NCBI RefSeq assembly: GCF_001724815.1
Contig: NZ_MEDO01000014.1
Span: 248,001-312,000 of the forward strand
Length of the DNA: 64,000 nt
Direction: 5' to 3'
Source of the DNA: Arenimonas sp. SCN 70-307
Lineage (GTDB): Bacteria; Pseudomonadota; Gammaproteobacteria; Xanthomonadales; Xanthomonadaceae
The first letter of the stretch is position 1. Each line of letters starts with the position of its first letter. Made by a program: the position numbers and the translations under genes. The notes beneath the pieces were generated by a model, which saw only the letters and a list, made by a program, of their open reading frames with translations, was not told the DNA's origin and made no database searches. Below, in pieces: positions 40,137 to 48,687 of the stretch.

Positions 40137-41417
<1,281 letters not shown>

Positions 41418-41437
41418 TCGCTTTCCTCTTCTTCGGG

Positions 41438-41449
41438 CACGCTACCGCC
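41438..41449 (-). promoter_or_regulatory. ops element (RfaH recruitment site)
   Basis: On the minus strand the tviB leader reads GGCGGTAGCGTG, identical to the 12-base ops core of JUMPstart sequences that pauses RNA polymerase and loads RfaH. It ends 20 bases before the tviB ATG and lies about 70 bases downstream of the RfaH-like gene. Its position at the head of a minus-strand gene run of some 30 kb is where antitermination would be needed. Confidence 0.82.
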
Positions 41450-41519
41450 CTACGGTTGCGTGGGCGCGTCCGTCGGGCCGGGGTTGCAGGTTGTGTAACG
41501 CCGGGATGGGCTGGCCGCG

Positions 41520-42041
41520 TCAGGCAGCGTTGGCAACCTTGGCGGCTTTCAGCACGTGGCGCGGCAGCAGGATTTCCTGCGCCCCGCCCAACAGCTCGAC
41601 CAGCACGATGACGCGATGCTCGCCCTCGGCACGGGCATACAGCGCCTCCAAGCCGACCAGCGGACCGTCATTGATGGTCACCCGCTCCCCGGGCTGGAAT
41701 CGCGGTTCAGGCAGGGTGATCACGCCCTCCCCGTCCGCGTCGCTTATCAGCCGGGCGATGAAGTCATCCGGCACACAGGCCGGCTGGCCCGCGATGCGCA
41801 CCAAGTCCACCGCGCCGCGGGTTGAACGCACCGGTGCCAGGCTCGTCACGTCGGCATCGGCGCACAGAAACAGATAGCGCGGGAACAGCGCCTCGGTCAC
41901 CACCTGCCGCCGCCCGCCGCGCACGCGCAGCACACCGCGGCGCAGGCGCGGCAGGAAACATTCGAAGCCCTGCCGGCGCAGGTGCTCCAAGGCCTGGGCC
42001 TCGGCGCGCGGGCGGGTGTGCACGCAGTACCAGCGCAACAT
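41520..42041 (-). CDS. rfaH: RfaH/NusG-family transcription antiterminator
   Basis: 173 residues from ATG 42041 (MLRWYCVHTRPRAEAQ), one base after the upstream stop (TGACATG). The NGN domain has WYCVHTRPRAEAQALEHLRRQGFE and RYLFLCADAD; the C-terminal KOW-like part has FQPGERVTINDGPLVGLEALY and RVIVLVELLG. RfaH binds polymerase at ops and suppresses termination and polarity across long envelope operons, and recruits ribosomes. The exact ops in the next leader strongly supports RfaH rather than NusG. It shares a transcript with the MarR-type regulator. Confidence 0.9.
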   Translation of the reverse strand: MLRWYCVHTRPRAEAQALEHLRRQGFECFLPRLRRGVLRVRGGRRQVVTEALFPRYLFLCADADVTSLAPVRSTRGAVDLVRIAGQPACVPDDFIARLISDADGEGVITLPEPRFQPGERVTINDGPLVGLEALYARAEGEHRVIVLVELLGGAQEILLPRHVLKAAKVANAA

Positions 42042-42042
42042 G

Positions 42043-42369
42043 TCAGCCGCTCTCCACTTCACGCTGCAGGCGCTCAATCTCGGCGCGCAGCGCGTCGTAT
42101 TCACTCATCTTGCGGGCAAGGAAGGCCTGCGTGAGCTTTGCCTTGGCCTCGATGCCGCGCGGCGTCAGCAGGTAGGCATAGCCCAGCTTGTGCTGGCTGC
42201 GGCTGAAGTTGCCCACCTTCACCCAGCCCTTGTCCACCAGGGCGCGCAGGGCGAAGTTGAGCTTGCCCAGGGAAACGCCGGTGCTGCGCGCCAGCTCGCG
42301 CTGGCTGGCGTCCGGGCTGGCCTCCAGCTGGCGCAGGATGGCCACGCTCAATTCGTCGGTGGGCGGCAT
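42043..42369 (-). CDS. MarR-family EPS-associated transcriptional regulator
   Basis: 108 residues. A winged helix: LSVAILRQLEASPDASQREL, ARSTGVSLGKLNFALRALVD, KGWVKVGNF, then LTPRGIEAKAKLTQAFLARK and a C-terminal coiled coil (MSEYDALRAEIERLQREVES). This small family is regularly found next to RfaH-like genes in exopolysaccharide loci. It probably controls the locus by binding near its own promoter in the short gap before the ligase gene; the ligand is unknown. Confidence 0.87.
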   Translation of the reverse strand: MPPTDELSVAILRQLEASPDASQRELARSTGVSLGKLNFALRALVDKGWVKVGNFSRSQHKLGYAYLLTPRGIEAKAKLTQAFLARKMSEYDALRAEIERLQREVESG

Positions 42370-43771: not shown

Positions 43772-43892
43772 CGCCTTCGATGATAGCCGAGGCGTGCTGC
43801 GGTTCGCGGCCGAAACTTTCGCCCGCGCAAACCCGCCAAAACGAAAGGCCACCCGAACAGTCTGTGTTAGAACGGACTGCGGGCCCGGCCCC

Positions 43893-43920
43893 AAAGAACG
43901 CCCCGTGAGGGGCGTTCTTT
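43893..43920. terminator. Hairpin inside the left end of the IS
   Basis: AAAGAACGCCCC and GGGGCGTTCTTT form a perfect 12-base stem around GTGA, followed by TTT-rich sequence on the plus strand (GTTTCTGG). It lies after the transposase stop and can act as a two-way terminator isolating the element from the ligase side. Confidence 0.75.
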
Positions 43921-43941
43921 GTTTCTGGATCCGATGCGCCG

Positions 43942-45360
43942 TCAGCCGGCCGCCAGCCGAGCCTGCAGGGGGCCTGCCCCCATCACCTTCATCGCCCGCT
44001 TCAGGTTCCACACCAAGGTGGCGATCGCTATCTCTGTACCGGCACCGGCCAACCCACGCAACAGGAATCGCGGGTGCTCGAAGATCCGGTACTTCAGCCC
44101 CCCGAACGGGTGCTCCACCGTGCATCGCCGGCGCCTCATCGCCTCCGGCGTCGCACGGGCCTGCATTCGCTGAAGGGCATCCTCATTCAGGTGGCGCGTC
44201 ACAATCCGACGCGACCCCACCGTGCATTGGGGTTTCAGTGGACAGGCCCCACAGTCCCGCGGATCGGCCTGGTAACTGACGCAATGGTCCTTACGCATCA
44301 GCTGCTTGCGCGTAAGCGTCCGGCTCGCCGGACACCTCAGGACATCCTGGTCGGCGTCGTAAGCGAAGGCGCTGCGATCAAACAATCCGCCACCTCCGTG
44401 GGAGTTGCTCGACCGGTGCGCCGGCACGTGGACCTCGATCCCCTGCGCTTCCAGCGCGGCCGCCTGTGAACCGTTGGAGTAGCCGGTGTCGGCCAGCACC
44501 GAAAGCTGGGTCGCCCCCAAGGCATCACGCGCCGCCTCGGCCATCGGCTGCAGGCAGCGGTTGTCGCCCGCGTCCGTGACCACGGCATGCGCCACGATCA
44601 GGGCATGCGCCCCGTCCACCGCCGTCTGCACGTTGTAGCCCGGGCCCACTCCCTTCAAGGGCCGGGCCTCGGGTTCGGTCATCACCCGGTGCCGGCGCCC
44701 CTCGGCCTCGATGGTCCCGGCCAAGGCCGCCGCAGCCGCCTGCTCGTCGGCCAGCACCGCCAAGGCCTGGCGAACGGCGGCCGGGTCGATCGCCGGCTCG
44801 GCCTCGCCCACATCGGCGGCGTCGAGCTGGTCCAGATACTCCGCCATGCGCTGGGCGCGCTGCGCCTGCTGGCGACTCAGTTCGTCCAGCCCCACCACGG
44901 CCTTGCCACTGGCCACGGCCCGGAACTTCGAGCCGTCGATGGCCACCCACTCCCCGCGGACCAGGCCCGCGCCTTGGCAGAACCGCACAAACTCGGCTCC
45001 GGCCCGCTGCAGCGCCTTGCCGTTGTCACGCCGGAACTGGGCGATGGTCTTGTGGTCCGGCGCCAGCCGGCCCAGCAACCACATTACTTCGACGTTGCGC
45101 TGGCACTCGCGTTCAAGCCGGCGCGAGGAGCGAACCTGGTTGAGATAGCCGTACAGGTACAGCTTGAGCAGGTCGGCCGGATCATAGGGCGGTCGCCCCG
45201 TCCCCTTGGGCTGGGCCTTGCCAAACCCCAGCCCAGACAGCGGCAGCCGCCGGACGAAGGCCTCGATCACCCGGCACACATGCTCGGCCGGCACCAACTC
45301 GTCCAAGGAGAGCGGAAAGAGCGTCGACTGCCCCCGGTCATCACCGCGCACAAAGGCCAT
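43942..45360 (-). CDS. IS1182-family DDE transposase
   Basis: 472 residues from ATG 45360 (MAFVRGDDRGQSTLFP). The N-terminal domain has PLSLDELVPAEHVCRVIEAF and GTGRPPYDPADLLKLYLYGY; the RNase H-like core has the first Asp in EWVAIDGSKFRAVAS, the second in VLADTGYSNGSQ, and Glu in CTVEHPFGGLKYRIF; a Cys cluster DPRDCGACPLKPQC sits before the Glu. The frame is uninterrupted. The ATG directly follows a hairpin plus six T and has no Shine-Dalgarno sequence, so expression is probably very low. Confidence 0.93.
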   Translation of the reverse strand: MAFVRGDDRGQSTLFPLSLDELVPAEHVCRVIEAFVRRLPLSGLGFGKAQPKGTGRPPYDPADLLKLYLYGYLNQVRSSRRLERECQRNVEVMWLLGRLAPDHKTIAQFRRDNGKALQRAGAEFVRFCQGAGLVRGEWVAIDGSKFRAVASGKAVVGLDELSRQQAQRAQRMAEYLDQLDAADVGEAEPAIDPAAVRQALAVLADEQAAAAALAGTIEAEGRRHRVMTEPEARPLKGVGPGYNVQTAVDGAHALIVAHAVVTDAGDNRCLQPMAEAARDALGATQLSVLADTGYSNGSQAAALEAQGIEVHVPAHRSSNSHGGGGLFDRSAFAYDADQDVLRCPASRTLTRKQLMRKDHCVSYQADPRDCGACPLKPQCTVGSRRIVTRHLNEDALQRMQARATPEAMRRRRCTVEHPFGGLKYRIFEHPRFLLRGLAGAGTEIAIATLVWNLKRAMKVMGAGPLQARLAAG

Positions 45361-45397
45361 AAAAAACAATGCCCGCAACTGACGTTGCGGGCATTGT
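45361..45397 (-). terminator. Intrinsic terminator abutting the transposase start codon
   Basis: On the minus strand ACAATGCCCGCAAC pairs perfectly with GTTGCGGGCATTGT (14 bases, loop GTCA) and TTTTTT follows, with the transposase ATG immediately after. It should stop transcripts entering from the host side before they reach the transposase. Confidence 0.85.
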
Positions 45398-45475
45398 CTT
45401 CAACTTCCGGGCCGTCTGAACAGTGTTTTTACACAGTCTGCGAAGGTGGCCTTTCGCGTCCGGGCCGGCAGCCGT

Positions 45476-45931
45476 TTACGGGCTGATCGGCGGGGCCGGC
45501 GGCGGGTCGGTGATGCTGAAGTCGTTGCTCATCAGGTCCCACACGATCACGGCGGCCACGCCGGTGAAGACCAGCACGGCGCCGTCGTTGTCGCGGGCGC
45601 GCGAGCCCACGGCCTGGGCGTAGGTGGGGCCGATCTTCTGCACGTTGGCCACGGCGCCGGCGCAGGTGGACACGGCCGGAACCTCGAGCAGCGAGCCGGC
45701 TTCCAGCGGCAGGGCGCAGCCGTCGGCGAAGGTGAGCGTGGCGCTGGCGCCTTCCATCAGCATCACGCGGTCGCCGGCCTGCAGGGCCTGGCCCTCGGCG
45801 GCGGTGGCGAACTCCTCGCCCTGGTTCACCAGCACGGTGCCTTCCTGGGCGGACAGGGTGGCCACGGGCTCGGAAGCGAGCGCGCTGGAGGCCAGCAGGG
45901 TGGCGGCGATGGCGGTGGCGATGCGGATCAT
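45476..45931 (-). CDS. Secreted FecR-like-domain protein
   Basis: 151 residues from ATG 45931, with AAGGAG eight bases before it. A Sec signal (MIRIATAIAATLLASSALAS) is followed by a small FecR/SH3-like domain: ATLSAQEGTVLVNQGEEFAT, ALQAGDRVMLMEGASATLTF and the Cys-containing DGCALPLEAGSLLEVP with a second Cys in STCAGAV, possibly a disulphide. A hydrophobic stretch AVLVFTGVAAVIVWDL near the C-terminus may anchor it, and it ends in a Pro-rich tail. Similar small proteins accompany exopolysaccharide loci; role unknown. Its terminator carries the IS. Confidence 0.7.
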   Translation of the reverse strand: MIRIATAIAATLLASSALASEPVATLSAQEGTVLVNQGEEFATAAEGQALQAGDRVMLMEGASATLTFADGCALPLEAGSLLEVPAVSTCAGAVANVQKIGPTYAQAVGSRARDNDGAVLVFTGVAAVIVWDLMSNDFSITDPPPAPPISP

Positions 45932-46055
45932 GGTTCGCTCCTTTCGGGGGCGTGGGGGCGGCAATCGTTGGCAGGTTACCGCTGGCGGGGGGCCGGTGCA
46001 AGCAGGAATTTTTCCCGGCCCTTTGTAAGTTCAACAGGTTACGCGTTCATGAAGG

Positions 46056-47279
46056 CTACGGAACCCGGGTGATTTTCAGGTCATCGAACCAGGCCCGCCC
46101 GCCAATCCGCTGCTCGGCGGGTATGCGCGCGGGCAGGCGCAGGGCCAGCCACTGGCCCGGGCAGTCTTCGGGCACGGTGAAGGCCACGGCCAGTTCGCGC
46201 CAGCCGCCCTGCCCGCGCAGCGGCGCGGTGGCGGCCAGCGGGGCGCCGCCCTTCACGCAGCTGATTTCCCACACCAGGCCGCGCTCGGTGCGCAGGTTGT
46301 CGGGGCGGGCGCGCAGGCTCAGCTGGTAGTTGCCGGGCGGCAGGGCCAGCATCTGGCGCAGGTGGTTGAAGGGCACGCGGCGGTCCTCGAAGGCCAACTG
46401 AAGGGCCAGCCGCCCGCCCACGCCCTCGCCCGCCAGCCGGCTGATGCGGGCGCCGGCCACGCGGCCGATGCGCCAGTCGAAGCCTACCGCTTCAGGCGCG
46501 TGCTCGAAGCCGCCGTTGAACACGTTGCCCAGGCGGGCCTGGCGCTCGGGCGGCAGGTTGGCGGCCCACAGCAGGTAGGCCTGCCCCACCCGGCCCTCGC
46601 GCACGAGGCGGTCCAGCCAGGGGCCGAGTTCGTTGCCGGACAGGCCGCCCGGGGCTTTTCGAACGGCATCGAACAGCGGGGCCACGGCGTCGAGGTCGGT
46701 GCTCTTGCTGGCCACCAGGGAAAGGAAGCGGCCGCGCCAGGGCGGCTGCTTCGCCAGCGCCTCGGCCAGCGGGGCGTGGGCGGGCTCGGCGGCGGCCAGG
46801 GCCAGCAGCAGCGGCTCGAAGCGTGGAAACAGCGCGGGCTGCACGCGCAGCATCGTGTCGATGTGGCCCAGGGCCTCGGTGGGGCGGGCGTTGCGCAGGT
46901 GGTGGTCGATGAGCCAGGCATGCGCGGGCAGGTCGCGCGGGGCGCGGCGGGCGGCGATCTTGAACAGGTCGGCGGCCTTGGCCTCGTCGCCGGCGGCCAG
47001 GGCCAGCCGGGCCAGCACGCGGTAGGGGCGGCCATCCAGCGGGTCGGCCTGCAGGGCCTGCTCGGCGTAAGCCTTGGCGTCGGCGGCGCGGGCCGGGTCT
47101 TCGGCAGCGGCTTCGGCCGCGCGCAGCAAGGCCACGGGGTGGTCGTCGCGCCAGAACAGCGCACGCTCGGGGTTGGTTTCAGCGTAGTGATCGGCCAGGC
47201 CCAGGCTGGCCACGCGCCAGGCGGCGAAGGCGAGAAGGCCCGCCGCCGCCCAGAACCCAAGGCGCTTAGCGTTCGTCAT
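46056..47279 (-). CDS. Membrane-anchored TPR protein with C-terminal carbohydrate-binding-like domain
   Basis: 407 residues. One N-terminal membrane helix (RLGFWAAAGLLAFAAWRVAS), then TPR-like helices at about residues 45-150 (DAKAYAEQALQADPLDGRPY, ALAAGDEAKAADLFKIAARR). The last 150 residues read as a beta-sandwich: NVFNGGFEHAPEAVGFDWRI, PPGNYQLSLRARPD and GGRAWFDDLKI, as in carbohydrate-binding modules. It probably faces the periplasm and scaffolds polysaccharide assembly (inference). It overlaps the J-domain gene by 14 bases, so the two are co-translated. Confidence 0.68.
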   Translation of the reverse strand: MTNAKRLGFWAAAGLLAFAAWRVASLGLADHYAETNPERALFWRDDHPVALLRAAEAAAEDPARAADAKAYAEQALQADPLDGRPYRVLARLALAAGDEAKAADLFKIAARRAPRDLPAHAWLIDHHLRNARPTEALGHIDTMLRVQPALFPRFEPLLLALAAAEPAHAPLAEALAKQPPWRGRFLSLVASKSTDLDAVAPLFDAVRKAPGGLSGNELGPWLDRLVREGRVGQAYLLWAANLPPERQARLGNVFNGGFEHAPEAVGFDWRIGRVAGARISRLAGEGVGGRLALQLAFEDRRVPFNHLRQMLALPPGNYQLSLRARPDNLRTERGLVWEISCVKGGAPLAATAPLRGQGGWRELAVAFTVPEDCPGQWLALRLPARIPAEQRIGGRAWFDDLKITRVP

Positions 47280-48687
47280 GGCGGATGGTCTTGATGCGCA
47301 GCACGCCGTCTTCGCGGGCCAGGTCGAAGCGGATCTCGCCCTCGCTGCGGCCGGTGCGCCAGCGGCCGGCGCGGCTGACGCGCGCCTCGAAGCGCGCCAG
47401 CACGGTGGCGCTGGTTTCGCCCTGCAGCCAGCCGTTGGGCGTCAGCCGCAGTTCGCGGGCGTCGCTGTCGTCGAAGAGTTCCTGGTAGTCGTAGGCGATT
47501 TCGGCGCGCCCGCCGCGGTTGTTGGTGGCGTCGCGGGTGAACAGGCGCATCAGGGCGCGCAGGTCGCCGCGGCGGTAGGCGGTGGTGAATTGTTCGAGCA
47601 GGGCGAGGGCTTCCTGCTCGGTGATGGGGGTCGGCGTGGCTTCGGGCTGGGGAGCGGGCGCTGCGGGCTGTGCGGCGATCGCTGGTGCTGGCCTGGCTGC
47701 GGTGGCGGTGGCGGTGGCAGCGGCAGCGGTTGTAGGTGCCGGAGTGACGCTGGGGACGGCGCGCGCCGGGGCGGCGGGCGGCGGCGTGGGCGGTTTGGGG
47801 GTGCGCGGGGTCGGGCCTGAAGGCCCTCCTGCAGGGGTGGTGGCGAGTTGGGGATTCGCGCCTGAAGGCGCTCCTACAGGGGGTGTGGGCGCGGGGGGCT
47901 CGCTTGGTTCACTTGCCGTCGCGACCACGCCGGCTTCGGCCGCCGGGATCACCGCAACGGCCTCCGTGGGCGTCTCGGCAACCGCCGGCTCGGCGGCGAT
48001 GGCAACGGGCGGCATCGCCGTGCGCGGGGTGCGCGGGTTCTGGGCGTACCACATCAGCGCCAGCAGGGCGCCGGCCAGGAGGCCGAAGCTGCCGAGCACG
48101 ATAATGGGGAGGCGTTGGGTGGTGCGGGCGGAGAGGATCGGCGCATCCACCGGAGTGGAGCGAAGATTCGCGCCTGAAGGCGCTCCTGCAGGGGATGCGG
48201 TTCTTGTGGGAGGGCCTTCAGGCCCGACGGCGGCATCCTCGCCCCAGCCGTCTGCCAGGCCAGCGTCGTAAGCCGCGCGCTTCTCCGGCTGGCGCAGGTC
48301 TTGCCAGGCGCGGTTCACGCGGTCGGCGTACAGCGCTTCCCATTCGTCGGGGTTGCGGTCGGGGTGCAGCCAGCGCACCAGCCAGCGGTAGTGTTCCTTG
48401 ATGCGGGCGTCGGGCGCGTCGGGGTTCACGCCCAGCACGCGGTAGCTGCTGGCGCCGGGGGCGAACAGCAGCTGTTGCAGGTAGAAAGGCGCGGCCTCGC
48501 ACAGCTCGTCGGCGCTGGTGCCCAGCGCGGCCGCGGCGAACTCGGCGGTGACGCGGTCGCCGGCGGCGATGCGCACCACTTCCAGCACATCGTCGGGCAG
48601 CGGGCGCTGGCGGGCGGCGGCCAGCAGGGCCGGGGCCCGCCAGTAGGCCAGGGCCTGCTCCAGCGCCTGGCCCACCCCTGCCGTCAC
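47266..48687 (-). CDS. Membrane J-domain protein with NTF2-like tail and REP-encoded inserts
   Basis: 473 residues, GTG start overlapping the wzc stop (GTGA). A J domain at about residues 75-145 has the HPD motif in RWLHPDRNPDEW; such domains stimulate DnaK. One membrane helix (IVLGSFGLLAGALLALMWYA, about 200-220), a long Ala/Pro-rich linker, and a C-terminal NTF2/SnoaL-like domain (ALLEQFTTAYRRGDLRALMR to RFDLAREDGVLRIKTI). Two REP palindrome pairs lie in frame at about residues 153-175 and 268-293 and encode VGPEGPPT, GAPSGAN and GGPSGPT. Genes of this layout belong to exopolysaccharide loci in this group; function unproven. Confidence 0.75.
   Translation of the reverse strand: MTAGVGQALEQALAYWRAPALLAAARQRPLPDDVLEVVRIAAGDRVTAEFAAAALGTSADELCEAAPFYLQQLLFAPGASSYRVLGVNPDAPDARIKEHYRWLVRWLHPDRNPDEWEALYADRVNRAWQDLRQPEKRAAYDAGLADGWGEDAAVGPEGPPTRTASPAGAPSGANLRSTPVDAPILSARTTQRLPIIVLGSFGLLAGALLALMWYAQNPRTPRTAMPPVAIAAEPAVAETPTEAVAVIPAAEAGVVATASEPSEPPAPTPPVGAPSGANPQLATTPAGGPSGPTPRTPKPPTPPPAAPARAVPSVTPAPTTAAAATATATAARPAPAIAAQPAAPAPQPEATPTPITEQEALALLEQFTTAYRRGDLRALMRLFTRDATNNRGGRAEIAYDYQELFDDSDARELRLTPNGWLQGETSATVLARFEARVSRAGRWRTGRSEGEIRFDLAREDGVLRIKTIRHDER
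47810..47883. repeat. REP palindrome pair inside the J-domain gene (distal)
   Basis: Two REP units in the same orientation: TCGGGCCTGAAGGCCCTCC (from 47811) and CGCGCCTGAAGGCGCTCC (from 47857). Each folds into a small hairpin (GGGCC/GGCCC and GCGCC/GGCGC around TGAA). Both are read through in frame by the minus-strand gene. Confidence 0.85.
48165..48228. repeat. REP palindrome pair inside the J-domain gene (proximal)
   Basis: CGCGCCTGAAGGCGCTCC (48170-48187) and, in opposite orientation, GTGGGAGGGCCTTCAGGCCC (48206-48225). The inverted arrangement resembles a BIME. Translated on the minus strand it gives VGPEGPPT and GAPSGAN. Confidence 0.85.

Follow-up and report, generated by a model that had tools for sequence, protein, structure and literature searches.

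A hairpin centred on the target duplication is a general target rule, among the sites examined, for the branch of IS1182-family insertion sequences referred to here as clade A, and coincidence is an unlikely explanation. The member of the clade from which the comparison starts lies in the window, which is the whole 64,000-nucleotide stretch of Arenimonas sp. SCN 70-307 DNA that was analysed. It is reasonably probable, judging from sequence, that the intrinsic-terminator hairpin is itself the target of clade A, that the host terminator is split on insertion, and that hairpins carried by the element probably restore termination. Structure-guided target choice, as proposed in an earlier sequence-only reading of the window, is supported. 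The features of the window are as follows.

43838 to 43841, minus strand: TTTT tract of the predicted host terminator (AAAA on the plus strand), read directly
43842 to 43853, minus strand: arm of the predicted host terminator, CGAAAGGCCACC on the plus strand, the 3' arm of the minus-strand hairpin
43854 to 43857, no strand: left copy of the target duplication CGAA, read directly
43858 to 45440, minus strand: IS1182-family insertion sequence of 1583 bp, with ends CAGTCTGTGTTAGAAC (left) and CAGACTGTGTAAAAAC (right, read inward)
43892 to 43921, no strand: internal hairpin downstream of the transposase, with the sequence CAAAGAACGCCCC/GGGGCGTTCTTTG
43942 to 45360, minus strand: transposase gene, 472 aa, with DUF772 and DDE_Tnp_1 matches
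45363 to 45400, minus strand: internal hairpin beside the transposase start codon, in the path of entering host-gene transcripts
45441 to 45444, no strand: right copy of the target duplication CGAA, read directly
45445 to 45456, minus strand: arm of the predicted host terminator, GGTGGCCTTTCG on the plus strand, the 5' arm of the minus-strand hairpin
45476 to 45964, minus strand: host gene with the split terminator, called FecR-like in the sequence-only reading

The transposase scores 384.9 bits against the IS1182 model NF033551, above the cut-off of 270, so the assignment to IS1182 made from the letters alone is borne out. The element also has the traits of the family, namely one transposase gene, imperfect terminal inverted repeats (13 of 16 bases identical between the ends) and a 4-bp direct repeat. 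Outside CGAA, CGAAAGGCCACC and GGTGGCCTTTCG are complementary at 12 of 12 nt, and the perfect 12-base arms previously described can be read directly at 43842-43853 and 45445-45456. The same is true of the rebuilt empty site, which on the minus strand gives a 12-pair stem, a TTCG loop and then TTTT. The hairpin begins 19 nt past the stop codon of the minus-strand gene 45476-45964, and this arrangement of a GC-rich hairpin and T tract 3' of an open reading frame is the layout of a predicted intrinsic terminator. The location of the hairpin 3' of this gene therefore stands, while the FecR-like label is weaker: there is no Pfam match at E 1e-3, and an NCBIfam match to the LapA retention domain falls below its cut-off. 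The neighbours at 40137-42104 and 46056-48687 include a UDP-glucose/GDP-mannose dehydrogenase, a NusG-domain protein, a DnaJ-domain protein and a protein similar, below cut-off, to the XrtA-system TPR protein PrsT; their predicted functions suggest a polysaccharide locus. The genome (G000) also has distant IS1182-like transposase matches at C14:576713-578011 and C25:32-526, which are unlike the element studied here.

The locus is uninterrupted in one of 27 genomes searched, the same-genus genome G147 (L255), where the match has 77% identity across the entire 351-base empty-site query. There a single CGAA is flanked by GGGCCACC and GGTGGCCC, so that the hairpin is kept with the same loop; an orthologous locus without the hairpin had been named as evidence against the proposal, and this is not what was found. 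The stem has 9 pairs in G147 versus 12 in the window (counted by eye), and the two genomes differ at the eighth pair counted from the loop, A-T in the window against G-C in G147, both sides having changed (alignment, by eye). A second match over the hairpin of the window empty site was not found in G000 at E 1e-3 among the 26 of 211 candidates that were scored. For one empty site of another genome, G627, the query places the terminator at about 176-205, and 19 Pseudomonas loci besides that of G627 itself align from base 1 to at least 204, spanning it. Two of these orthologs were read base by base: the hairpin is identical in L279, and one arm base differs in L281.

Because the genome has one full copy of the element, tests of generality rest on relatives. 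These comprise 63 loci from public genomes, 395 sampled genomes of the family of the window (a match in 40), and 398 genomes sampled from the genus of P. khavaziana, of which 77 have a match at E 1e-100 with four candidates scored per genome. Full copy lists were made for 16 of the 77 matching genomes (102 copies at E 1e-200); these were picked because they bear copies and are not a random sample. Among the 395 genomes, no other full-length relative more than 42% identical was found, and the tree row nearest to the window transposase comes from an Acidobacteriales assembly, so the element may be of distant origin. Clade A was defined by a transposase at least 47.5% identical to that of the window or at least 55% identical to that of P. 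khavaziana, and in a tree of 59 transposases its 23 rows are separated from the rest by a branch supported at 100/93. Element ends were anchored to a consensus, and hits covering less than 85% of the query were left out of the counts; two such hits, L036 (AAGA) and L037 (CTTACC, a 6-nt loop), lie in hairpins by eye. From 145 transposase hits, 118 distinct sites of 26 element types remained after removal of six without two recognisable ends (L002; L039/L114/L124; L013/L106), six with short flanks and 15 that repeated a site already included. The 18-bp arms on either side of one removed relative, L039 from an Acidobacteriales MAG, are GTGGGTGCCGCACCCTTC / GAAGGGTGCGGCACCCAC and may form a REP-like palindrome. 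Two elements that differ in length, L137 and L144 (1596 and 1607 bp), occupy seemingly the same terminator in two genomes. A duplication is kept at 108 of the 118 sites, where exact direct repeats of at least 3 bp were counted; it is 4 bp long in 80, 5 in 22, 6 in five and 3 in one, and the five P. khavaziana sites all have duplications of 5 or 6 bp.

A hairpin was called where 6 or more pairs, with up to one mismatch, form a stem whose centre lies no more than 1.5 nt from that of the duplication; 93 of the 108 duplicated sites have one. Control positions from the flanks of these copies, scored by nearly the same rule, qualify in 1520 of 34339 cases (4.4%), and since only this fraction of control positions reaches a 6-pair stem with one mismatch, the hairpin of the window is not attributable to chance. 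The possibility that other copies sit in unstructured DNA, raised beforehand as an objection, is thus mostly answered in the negative. Under a stricter rule (perfect stem of at least 7 pairs, dyad within half a base) 67 of the 108 sites remain, against backgrounds of 158/199160 and 169/199160 positions in two genomes, with 400 kb taken from each. Flush perfect stems of at least 6 pairs occur at 59 of the 108 sites, and at 12 of 995 after flanks were paired across different sites.

The centre of the duplication coincides with the dyad in 74 of 92 hairpin sites and is half a base off in 13 and a full base off in five. In the 90 sites with stems of at least 7 pairs, the parities of duplication and dyad are even-even in 63, even-odd in seven, odd-even in four and odd-odd in 16, so that they agree in 79 (Fisher p 3.8e-9). 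Parity was considered as a test independent of centring and rejected as such: equal parity implies that the arms lie at equal-parity distances from the two cuts, and the two results therefore count as one finding. Taken together, they indicate that the position of the cuts seemingly follows the arms and does not come from a fixed stagger. A strict law by which the duplication equals the loop was also rejected, as the loops left by maximal stems range from 3 to 10 (mostly 4 or 5) where the duplication is 4-6 bp; the duplication seems to be the loop usually, not always. This precision bears on the idea that the element inserts anywhere and that only copies in harmless intergenic hairpins persist. 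Survivorship would fit the usually intergenic location of terminators and the presence of terminator-like hairpins in the element itself, but selection among random insertions would give neither exact centring on the dyad nor matching parity.

Survivorship is contradicted in the main by a second group as well, and we regard it as very improbable. Clade B consists of IS1182 relatives mostly 40-46% identical to the P. khavaziana transposase and drawn partly from the same genus. Its elements are like those of clade A in family (by similarity), ends and length, but unlike them in having 4-bp GGCC/GGTC targets: of 47 sites, 33 have a duplication, which is GGCC in 20, GGTC in seven and something else in six. 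A perfect stem of at least 5 pairs is present in one of these 33 sites versus 77 of the 108 in clade A, and A4/T4 tracts are present in none of the 33. Some symmetry is retained, with arms of at least 4 pairs at some spacing of 0-4 in 8 of 33. The preference for hairpins is a trait of clade A, not of every IS1182 relative, and the earlier suggestion that IS1182 relatives prefer stem-loops holds for the clade of the window and fails for clade B. By eye, the GGCC/GGTC sites (L118, L148, L244, L068, L075, L081 and others) are often in degenerate palindromes, CCGCTnnnGGCCnnnAGCGG, and a far more distant element type (L081, L087), with ends TATTCCGTTGAAAAAC, has similar sites. The identity of ISPmo1 and ISPa7 is similar to that of clade B. 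L108 and L109, which branch beside clade A, show no duplication but, by eye, hairpin-like arms at either end, and from their sequence may be closer to the mode of IS1272.

Single bases around the cuts are as constant as the pairing or more so. A is found at -8 in 101 of the 108 clade A sites and T at +8 in 97; next to the cuts, 93 sites have C at -1 and 94 have G at +1. The sites with 5-bp duplications have A at -8 in 20 of 22. When a tract is defined as three of four bases at 8-11 nt from the cuts, both the A and the T tract are present at 85 of the 108 sites, for which the background is 0.15%, and at least one is present at 105. The distance from dyad to tract is 7 to 11.5 in 79 insertion sites and 1.5 to 13 in 39 background terminator-like hairpins (800 kb).

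Constancy of this kind, the same in the 5-bp sites, is what would be expected if each transposase protomer read a B-form half-site (A-tract, about 7 bp GC-rich, C at the cut) and no extrusion took place. Two half-sites would then be arranged in dyad symmetry at a spacing that sets the length of the duplication, and terminators would be where paired half-sites occur. In line with this, 13 of the 15 duplicated sites without a called hairpin keep a tract, with both in seven (L181 included) and one in six, leaving two with none; 12 of the 15 have A in at least three of positions -8 to -11. Against recognition of duplex half-sites stands the cross-site pairing of flanks, which keeps composition and yet lowers the frequency of flush stems as given above. 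Pairing was also compared at equal single-base profile score, the measure being at least 5 of 7 flush pairs, in bins that are small (2 to 63 sites) and against a background that includes neighbouring registers of the same hairpins. It is found at 0 of 2 sites in the lowest bin (score 5-8), and then at 29% of 7 sites versus 6% of 202 background positions (8-11), 50% of 4 versus 13% of 63 (11-14), 83% of 12 versus 8% of 25 (14-17), 77% of 13 versus 29% of 21 (17-20) and 81% of 63 versus 29% of 21 (above 20). Pairing adds to the base profile in every score bin except the lowest. The two cues are hard to separate at high score, as most of the 40 top-scoring background positions are inside hairpins in some register (by eye). 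On this evidence reading of the duplex alone is less likely than not.

An A or T tract at a terminator-like distance in 105 of 108 sites would also suit a transposase guided by paused polymerase, or one that uses single-stranded hairpins at replication forks. Against both stands the lack of a clear direction bias: the A run on the left is the longer in 46 sites, the T run on the right in 35, and 27 are tied, and read in the sense of the transposase TTCG and CGAA are about equally common as duplications (13 and 10). Coupling of insertion to transcription or replication is accordingly quite improbable. Supercoiling may have a role in making the hairpin available, which is compatible with the lack of a clear direction bias.

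We favour the hairpin as the target with several points counted against it. A called hairpin is lacking at 15 of the 108 sites with the duplication intact, the tracts are more constant than the pairing, the duplication is off the dyad by half a base or a full base in the 13 and five sites noted above, and there is the symmetry in 8 of 33 clade B sites. Three of the 15 (L200, L187 and L184) form stems of 4-5 pairs, and in L218 a stem of 15 pairs lies 2 nt away from the centre. Ten of the 15 belong to a single genome, G795, which has 35 near-identical copies (L154-L188) and 29 duplicated sites; hairpins are called at 19 of 29 sites inside this genome and at 74 of 79 outside it. Target saturation or a relaxed choice at high copy number may explain these sites.

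The ten copies without a duplication are for the most part decodable by means of matching duplications and hairpin arms. Seven of them form closed exchange cycles: L220 with L221, L173 with L186, and L178, L180 and L182 in a three-way cycle. Re-pairing the flanks within the cycles restores a duplication of 4-5 bp at every one of the seven junctions, and four of the seven have a perfect stem of at least 5 pairs with the dyad within half a base. The exchanged flanks are probably the product of recombination between copies of the element, that is, of chromosomal rearrangement. In L155 the two flanks differ by one base (CTGA/CTTA, by eye), and L100 and L236 fit neither pattern. Three copies in G650 (L219-L221) are at a recurring GCTGCCGAAGGCTGCGATC-like palindrome, which may be a Pseudomonas REP. 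Plasmid copies were also considered, with seven stretches picked from the top of 111 matching records, P. aeruginosa being left out, and six analysed. Five copies have both ends and represent four distinct sites (L339 and L341 share one), while the right end of L345 is not recognisable. In four of the five, including ISPpu20 of pWW53, a duplication of 4-5 bp is flanked by flush pairs at 7 of 7 positions; the fifth, L344, has 3 of 7, with a stem half a base off centre by eye. Phage records searched for relatives gave no match.

The proposal that the element brings its own hairpins was confirmed across the clade. A hairpin of at least 7 pairs is present within the last 185 bases, near the transposase end, in 26 of 26 element types, and within the first 112 bases, near the transposase start and mostly beside an ATG, in 25 of 26. 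In the window, the minus strand continues past the hairpin at 45363-45400 with T, from a TTTTTT run at 45361-45366 that overlaps the hairpin base, and then with ATG. We infer from this layout that the hairpin takes over from the broken terminator and protects the transposase. As the mechanism is envisaged, insertion would split the host terminator, and incoming host transcripts would meet one carried hairpin just ahead of the transposase start codon and another past the transposase, so that termination would probably be restored and the transposase shielded from read-through. The carried hairpins would be expected to terminate transcription in vivo, insertion would be near-neutral, and the transposase would contact an extruded or single-stranded hairpin rather than palindromic duplex. 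How the duplication arises can be proposed only tentatively: in an extruded cruciform, a DDE transposase may attack each strand at the 5' end of the loop, so that the loop is duplicated and the target structure sets the length of the duplication.

What had been a hint for the IS1182 family, namely that palindromes are targeted by some of its members, becomes with these results a quantitative rule of target choice for one clade, present in several bacterial groups, and the contrast of clades A and B means that the part of the transposase that chooses the target could be mapped. They also suggest a self-repairing strategy, in which a terminator broken by insertion is replaced by hairpins that the element carries. 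Should insertion depend on extrusion, the element would serve as a natural reporter, in living cells, of whether cruciforms form at terminators, a question of long standing.

Several known elements have comparable habits. IS1397, ISKpn1, IS621 and ISPpu9/10 are described in part of PMC1525189 as inserting into palindromic extragenic REP DNA; these belong to other IS families and have repeated REP targets, whereas the stems and loops used by clade A are diverse and terminator-like. A named relative is ISPpu20 (pWW53, NC_008275; record annotation). Its transposase is 51.8% identical to that of the window, its end sequence is the same to 1 of 16 bases, and its duplication TTAAT is between 7 flush pairs; it falls within the identity range of clade A. 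No paper was found for ISPpu20 by name in the open-licence full-text literature. In the IS1182 family as a whole, direct repeats of 2 to 60 bp are given in a passage of PMC7335449, and an excerpt of PMC12056078 has the family recognising sequence or DNA structure, with or without duplication. According to a section of PMC9208149, IS1182 is among the families over-represented between convergent genes, which agrees with the targeting of gene ends. IS1182 members with palindromic targets are mentioned in PMC4923244, with reference to Siguier 2015.

A further comparison is with IS1272/TnSha1 of staphylococci, also in the IS1182 family, for which passages of PMC4923244 and PMC5678879 describe hairpin targets including terminators. 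Five of seven TnSha1 targets were confirmed as transcription terminators, and the same passages report no primary sequence requirement; those of PMC5678879 list "non-IR" targets for older copies. Clade A resembles IS1272 in its hairpin targets, as seen at the window site, its L255 ortholog and the 93 sites with a called hairpin. The outcome differs: in the passages available of both papers, IS1272 removes the stem-loop sequence and makes no duplication, whereas the window element keeps both 12-nt arms and duplicates CGAA, as duplication is kept at most clade A sites. An account of a clade that duplicates terminator loops was not found in full-text searches of the open-licence literature. Clade A is thus a variant on a known family habit, hairpin targeting having been published for IS1272 and habitual loop duplication being unreported within the literature searched. 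The geometry of the window corresponds to a pathway drawn as hypothetical in 2017, the loop duplication of pathway c in Fig. 13 of PMC5678879, as far as that part of the paper describes it. If target structure sets the length of the duplication, a whole clade would realise this pathway in nature.
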